DNA of 64,000 nucleotides from Planctomycetota bacterium (GTDB lineage Bacteria; Planctomycetota; UBA1135; GCA-002686595), in NCBI GenBank assembly GCA_002686945.1, contig NYYZ01000039.1, positions 106,555 to 170,554 of the forward strand, written 5' to 3'. Below the pieces are notes generated by a model. It did no database searches, was not told the DNA's origin, and saw only the letters and a list, made by a program, of their open reading frames with translations. The translations under genes were made by a program, and so were the position numbers. Positions 48,101 to 48,647 of this stretch are shown in pieces (the stretch's first letter is position 1; the number at the start of each line of letters is the position of its first letter).

Positions 48101-48143
48101 AAACCGGTGGTCCGGGGCGCGAGGCGCCCCGGACCACCGGTTT
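48101..48143. repeat. Perfect 20-bp-stem inverted repeat, 3-nt loop
   Basis: AAACCGGTGGTCCGGGGCGC-GAG-GCGCCCCGGACCACCGGTTT, checked base by base. Starts 43 nt downstream of the Sec-peroxiredoxin stop (minus strand). Confidence 0.85.
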
Positions 48144-48185: not shown

Positions 48186-48647
48186 TCAGCCAAGCTCCTT
48201 GCACTTGCCGAGCAGATCGCCCGGGTTGCGCTCGCCACCGACGCCAGCGGACTCGGCCCACTTGACCGTACCATCCTTGCCAATCAGCACCGTGGCGCGA
48301 TCGGTGATGCCCATATCATCGAGCATCAAGCCATAGGCATTCGCCACGGCGCCTTTGGGATGGAAGTCCGCCAAAAGGGGATAGGTGATGCCGTCAAACG
48401 ACCCCGCCCATGCCTTGTGACAATACTTGCTATCAACGCTGATACCCAAGACCTGGGTATCACAGGCCTCGAATTGCTCCTTGAGCGCTTCGAGTCCCGG
48501 GATTTCAATGCTTCATGTAGGGGTGAAATCCAATGGATAAAACACAAGCAGAACATTCTTGGAACCATTGAAGCTCGAGAGCTTCACCGTGGTGTCCAGA
48601 TGGCTGTCCAGCTCGAAATCGGGGGCCGGGGCTCCTGTATCGATCAT
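48186..48647 (-). CDS. Peroxiredoxin (AhpC/TSA family) with in-frame TGA at the peroxidatic Cys position: predicted selenoprotein
   Basis: Minus-strand reading MIDTGAPAPDFELDSHLDTTVKLSSFNGSKNVLLVFYPLDFTPT[TGA 48515-48513]SIEIPGLEALKEQFEACDTQVLGISVDSKYCHKAWAGSFDGITYPLLADFHPKGAVANAYGLMLDDMGITDRATVLIGKDGTVKWAESAGVGGERNPGDLLGKCKELG*. Both halves are in one frame and together make a full-length Prx; TGA replaces Cys in the FTPxC motif. Confidence 0.85.

Follow-up and report, generated by a model that had tools for sequence, protein, structure and literature searches.

The window analyzed here, the whole 64-kb stretch of DNA, carries on its minus strand a coding sequence of 153 amino acids (48186..48647) for an AhpE-like 1-Cys peroxiredoxin (Prx) with the active site TPTU, which is very likely a selenocysteine (Sec) peroxiredoxin. 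An AhpC-TSA Pfam domain is found in the translation (2.7e-33), and the closest solved structures are those of M. tuberculosis AhpE (Rv2238c, 7e-29), in which a cysteine occupies the position of the in-frame UGA. This codon (48515..48513, minus strand) specifies residue 45 at the peroxidatic position, in the context FYPLDFTPT-U-SIEIPG. The protein shares with the Sec-peroxiredoxin family (PMC1088965, PMC13188914) an AhpC/TSA fold and a TxxU motif at its peroxidatic position, and the PrxU model NF040737 returns 76.3 bits for this protein vs a curated cut-off of 270 bits, which places it outside PrxU. The TGA is kept in all close orthologues and in 80 of the 80 relatives listed by a scan of genome contigs; the UGA-bearing relatives listed belong to Planctomycetota, Krumholzibacteriota, Acidobacteriota, Myxococcota, Pseudomonadota, SAR324, and Binatota. 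The reading of this UGA as Sec is well founded, because SelA, a tRNA-Sec (73.7 bits, elsewhere in the genome), a SelB with a C-terminal SelB-wing (winged helix) domain (348 bits), and a selD with its own UGA are all encoded in the source genome, the assembly of which is fragmented and rated 79% complete. Within the 64-kb window, an Rfam scan gave no match and ARAGORN found no tRNA. Just 3' of the Prx stop codon (window 48101..48143), an inverted repeat of 20 bp without mismatches (AAACCGGTGGTCCGGGGCGC; its loop is CTC) is probably a transcript terminator, albeit with no clear T-run.

Positions in the mRNA are numbered from the first base after the UGA, so that nt 1 is 48512 and nt n is coordinate 48513-n. 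Fold prediction leaves nt 1 to 13 (48500..48512, minus strand) as an unpaired linker, followed by a first hairpin, H1, at nt 14 to 50 (48463..48499, minus strand), which is proposed below to act as a spacer. Its middle part (nt 19-45, 48468..48494) is the stem that a sequence-only reading of the locus had put forward as a candidate SECIS. The pairing described there, CUCGAA (nt 19-24) with UUCGAG (nt 40-45) and, inside it, GCUC (27-30) with GAGC (34-37) around an AAG loop, is borne out: the outer segments are exactly complementary, the inner stem is present, and both have pair probabilities of at least 0.97 in the ensemble, in which the alternative fold with an AGCGC loop is not populated. The helix also extends outward, with nt 14 to 17 paired to nt 47 to 50, so that the whole hairpin spans 37 nt at -17.9 kcal/mol, a stability that none of 200 dinucleotide shuffles equalled (z -3.97).

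The same reading had placed the apical loop at nt 31 to 33, inside the published range of 16 to 37 nt, and had remarked that this loop breaks the rule of a G within the first two loop bases; both points are right. It had suggested that the element may be divergent, while the reason appears to be that the wrong loop was considered, the rule-fitting loop being located in the next hairpin. Across 42 representatives (orthologues less than 80% identical over 84 nt), the H1 loop, AAG in this gene, varies in sequence and its start drifts over nt 24 to 36; a G is found in its first two bases in 12 of the 42, and the inner stem is complete in three. A hairpin at nt 14 to 50 is conserved among orthologues while its individual pairs are not, and because the pairs drift, column-wise covariation is not seen for H1 itself. 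It is not a general by-product of coding, because the window nt 13 to 54 gives the strongest folding peak beyond the synonymous-codon null in the whole gene. The original proposal is partly supported: H1 belongs to the Sec-insertion apparatus of the Prx mRNA, but a role as the SelB-binding SECIS is improbable, the apical loop being unconserved in orthologues that retain the UGA.

H1 is directly abutted, with no gap in this gene, by a second hairpin that the sequence-only reading had passed over. This hairpin, H2 (nt 51-73; 48440..48462, minus strand; UGAUACCC AGGUCUU GGGUAUCA), is proposed as the SelB-binding SECIS. Its apical loop core at nt 60 to 64 (R-G-U-Y-Y; 48449..48453, minus strand), with G61 and U62 at 48452..48451, has the consensus A-RGUYY-U, carries the GGUCY motif, and follows the bacterial SECIS pattern N1-G-U-N-N2, which the loop of H1 does not. 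A search for the loop ARGUNYU on stems of 6 bp or more gives H2 as the single site in the 64-kb window, against 0.2 expected. As in the consensus bacterial SECIS, the hairpin lies in the coding sequence downstream of the Sec UGA, and its minimum free energy (MFE) of -12.1 kcal/mol is below the cut-off of -7.5 kcal/mol; its loop core starts at nt 60 (G61), outside the consensus range of 16 to 37 nt from the UGA.

A close examination of the orthologues provides strong evidence that H2 is maintained as a structure. Its eight pairs (nt 53-60 with nt 64-71) are formed at 97.9% across the 42 representatives, five of the eight show two-sided changes, and 25 such cells are counted vs 6.7 in shuffles, a signal that is specific to the register and is abolished by sliding it. 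The pairs are held through amino-acid changes (Asp GAU/Ile AUC, Asp GAC/Val GUC, Glu GAG/Leu CUC); in two sequences a conserved Gly is replaced by Ser with U57-A67 in place of C-G, and in another group a Gln is replaced by Tyr with U58-A66 in place of C-G. Positions 60 and 64 covary as well (G-C, A-U, G-U) with the tip G-U-Y unchanged, which fits a loop N1-G-U-N-N2 with N1 and N2 paired, and they are paired in 69 of 75 sequences. H2 is absent from the Cys homologues. On the strength of its loop, H2 would be the hairpin bound by SelB.

Among 97 distinct UGA sequences, H2 stands alone in 75 and a different, proximal hairpin stands alone in 16; four carry both, and two carry neither. The proximal hairpin (20 of 97) lies at nt 14 to 30 with the loop UGGAR and is typically CAGCGC-UGGAA-GCGCUG, with compensated variants such as CAGGCG-UGGAG-CGCCUG and CUGCGC-UGGAA-GCGCAG; it has a G within the first two loop positions and a canonical distance from the UGA. 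H2 is lost in 16 of the 20 sequences of this type, often with the Val of GUN changed to Pro, Ala, Thr, or Ile. The four that retain both hairpins (L194, L197, L199, and L204) are apparent intermediates in a relocation of the SECIS, and L144, closely related to L199 and L204, keeps the proximal hairpin and has AU in place of GU in H2. Within the Sec clade of the protein tree, H2-type lineages are basal and the proximal type is nested, with at least three changes of type forced by well-supported branches. The two sequences with neither signal are L103, in which the H2 stem is intact but the loop has AU instead of GU, and L068, a divergent paralogue. The latter (genome G043, contig C51) and L069 (genome G002) represent a divergent second Sec-peroxiredoxin with the motif DFAPTUN, located in G043 approximately 2.6 kb from the main Prx copy, and the loop retained in the pair is AGGUCUU or AGGUCCU.

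Selection at the codon level was assessed by a synonymous null in which codons were resampled without changing the protein. In class A, the H2 type, which is assigned using H2 pairing itself and takes in 75 of the 77 sequences lacking a proximal hairpin, 5.95 of 6 H2 pairs are formed vs 4.03 expected; class B, the proximal-hairpin type, has 3.38 vs 3.48 expected, and the Cys homologues have 3.78 vs 3.52. Gly +23 is encoded by GGU in 36 of 41 representatives, as against 83 of 479 Gly codons at other positions of these genes (p 2e-20), and GGU occupies this position in one of 16 class B and none of 12 Cys forms. The closure of H1 (nt 13-20 with nt 44-52) behaves in the same manner, with 4.32 pairs vs 1.51 expected in class A and 0.13 vs 1.07 in class B, being absent in Prx sequences with the proximal hairpin only; by the strict measure it is also not seen in L143, L147, and L148. 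Like class B, the Cys homologues lack H1. The MFE of nt 10 to 51 is -19.4 vs -11.8 under the null in class A, -14.9 vs -13.2 in class B, and -10.2 vs -8.9 in the Cys forms. Sliding windows resolve two separate peaks, at nt 13 to 54 (mean z -2.17) and nt 49 to 90 (mean z -1.68), with z +0.14 for the window nt 25 to 66 that cuts both hairpins and a flat profile in Cys genes; these z-scores ignore the relatedness of the sequences and are upper bounds that overstate significance, so the argument is carried by the contrast between groups. Metagenome-assembled genomes supply most of the sequences. The conserved RNA fold predicted for H2 is under codon-level selection, and H1 is associated with it.

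The source genome provides its own calibration in two other selenoprotein genes. The third such gene found, fdhA (formate dehydrogenase alpha; L249, contig C9:38651-40687), has an E. coli-like SECIS, a direct hairpin GUGGCC-GGUCU-GGUCGC with the GU at nt 20 to 21, and the GGUCU loop is common to most of the 18 fdhA genes read. The selD gene (L010, contig C48, 8086..9150; also L172) is built like the Prx gene: an H1 at nt 10 to 24 (UUGCCC-AUG-GGGCAA) is abutted by an H2 at nt 25 to 45 (CUCG-A-GC-AGGUCCU-GC-G-CGAG) with the GU at nt 34 to 35. The selD genes of related genomes have the same layout with a shorter H1 (~13-17 nt), and in the tandem selD set both hairpins exceed the synonymous null (z -6.1 for H1 and -9.2 for H2, again as upper bounds), while in the direct selD set neither is selected. 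GGUCY loops thus recur within one genome as GGUCU in fdhA, AGGUCCU in selD, and AGGUCUU in Prx, and because the loops match, one SelB probably reads all three at raw distances from the UGA of 20, 34, and 61 nt. With H1 excised, the median position of the loop G, as taken from minimum-energy folds, becomes 21.5 in selD and 25 (IQR 24-26.5) in Prx. This convergence of effective distances is the main quantitative support for H1 as a spacer.

A different SelB specificity in genomes with the proximal type was considered and not adopted, given a tandem selD with the loop AGGUCUU in such a genome (L156); a tandem selD kept beside a proximal-type Prx (G470) also counts against the bipartite reading set out below. 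Separately, the selD genes L155, L162, and L163 have loops GGAUCU, GGUCCU, and GGCUCU starting with GG at nt 21 to 22 and no spacer hairpin, which suggests that SelB loop preferences differ between lineages.

Taken together, these observations make it probable that the Prx mRNA carries a bipartite Sec signal, with H2 as the SECIS proper and H1 as a spacer that would bring it closer to the UGA. With the UGA in the ribosomal A site, the linker of nt 1 to 13 is expected to lie within the mRNA channel. In the proposed mechanism, nt 1 to approximately 12 would occupy the channel and H1 would fold just outside, looping out some 37 nt and abutting H2; stacking of H1 on H2 is plausible because there is no gap between them in this gene. 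SelB with Sec-tRNA-Sec would then bind the GU tip of the RGUYY loop of H2 and, judging from loop identity and effective distance (~24-25 vs 20-21 nt), would be positioned at the distance that it has on fdhA, after which Sec would be inserted. The likely reason for such an arrangement is that the loop would need CAR-GUN-YUG codons (Gln-Val-Leu), which the Gln-Val-Leu-Gly strand of the protein itself at +20 to +23 could supply, the residues beside Sec being presumably constrained. Gln-Val-Leu-Gly is also present in some Cys homologues, for example L064, so a segment already there could have come to serve as SECIS.

The alternative that survives best, which we nevertheless regard as improbable, retains H2 as the SECIS and takes H1 as a UGA-proximal stimulator acting by pausing or anti-termination, like the eukaryotic Sec redefinition element, rather than as a spacer. 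The start of H1, nt 14, is where the entrance of the ribosome would encounter a hairpin, and a UGA-proximal hairpin besides a distal SECIS is possible in eukaryotic selenoprotein mRNAs (PMC4561486). However, the H1 of selD is so much shorter and still abuts H2, effective distances converge in the two genes despite unequal H1 lengths, fdhA of the same genome needs no H1, and H1 closure is missing where the SelB hairpin is proximal. A considerably less probable alternative is that H1 is itself a SECIS of divergent type and H2 is incidental. The position of its loop, its stability, and the selection on it would suit this role, but drift in loop sequence and register, with the low counts for the G rule and the inner stem, does not, and the loop of the fdhA and selD type in this genome sits in H2, which is under strong codon-level selection and missing in Cys homologues. 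That both hairpins are by-products of coding constraint or codon bias (self-complementary CUC/GAG Leu/Glu codons and the Thr-Gln-Val-Leu-Gly motif) is hardly credible, since the motif alone yields about four of the six H2 pairs in synonymous shuffles, short of the nearly complete pairing observed, and explains neither the two-sided changes nor a GGU enrichment absent in class B and Cys genes.

In a wider context, the bipartite signal of a SECIS with a spacer hairpin suggests, with somewhat less assurance than for the Prx mRNA itself, that the UGA-to-SECIS spacing in bacteria is three-dimensional and not linear, that it can accommodate an inserted free-form hairpin of 13 to 37 nt, that lineages have switched between signals via redundant intermediates, and that the layout occurs in the unrelated genes prx and selD. 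Already known are SECIS elements inside coding sequences, the GGUCU loop, and peroxiredoxins with Sec. A spacer hairpin or a far-downstream bacterial SECIS was not found in the literature searched, a scope that leaves most subscription papers outside, and within it a bacterial SECIS loop that lies approximately 60 nt from the UGA and is drawn closer by another hairpin is new. The consensus bacterial SECIS of bSECISearch has a stem of 4 to 16 bp, a small N1-G-U-N-N2 loop with N1 and N2 paired, and a spacing of 16 to 37 nt, and a minority of bacterial SECIS elements fall outside this accepted model (PMC13188914, PMC12013277); according to deep-Sep, bSECISearch misses at least 13% of known genes (PMC12013277). 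As the 16 to 37 nt rule is built into the bacterial selenoprotein finder, a SECIS with a spacer hairpin offers a concrete reason for such escapes and a new search model. The distance tolerance of SelB becomes a simple mutagenesis question, recombinant selenoprotein designs with the SECIS moved off the active site would be possible, and the switch between distal and proximal signals through two-hairpin intermediates makes the evolution of a recoding signal traceable codon by codon.

The SECIS of E. coli fdhF has a GGUCU apical loop with flanking A-U that lies approximately 20 nt from the UGA. H2 resembles it in the GGUCU loop with flanking A-U, the GU dinucleotide, and the location within the coding sequence 3' of the UGA, and differs in the distance of 61 nt, the second hairpin in between, and the lack of a bulged U in the 5' arm. 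With the bSECISearch consensus it shares the stem length, the small N1-G-U-N-N2 loop, and the MFE; its spacing of ~58-60 nt, which needs H1, fails the constraint and puts it outside the model as written, although it should still work like a SECIS. The protein has the TPTU active site and AhpC/TSA fold of known Sec-peroxiredoxins, but belongs to an AhpE-like subfamily and not PrxU, and its SECIS architecture departs from the published model. Like the eukaryotic Sec redefinition element with its distal SECIS, the Prx mRNA has two RNA elements, one beside the UGA and one farther away; unlike in that pair, the two hairpins abut within 75 nt of coding sequence and the distal one carries a SelB-type loop, not a kink-turn.
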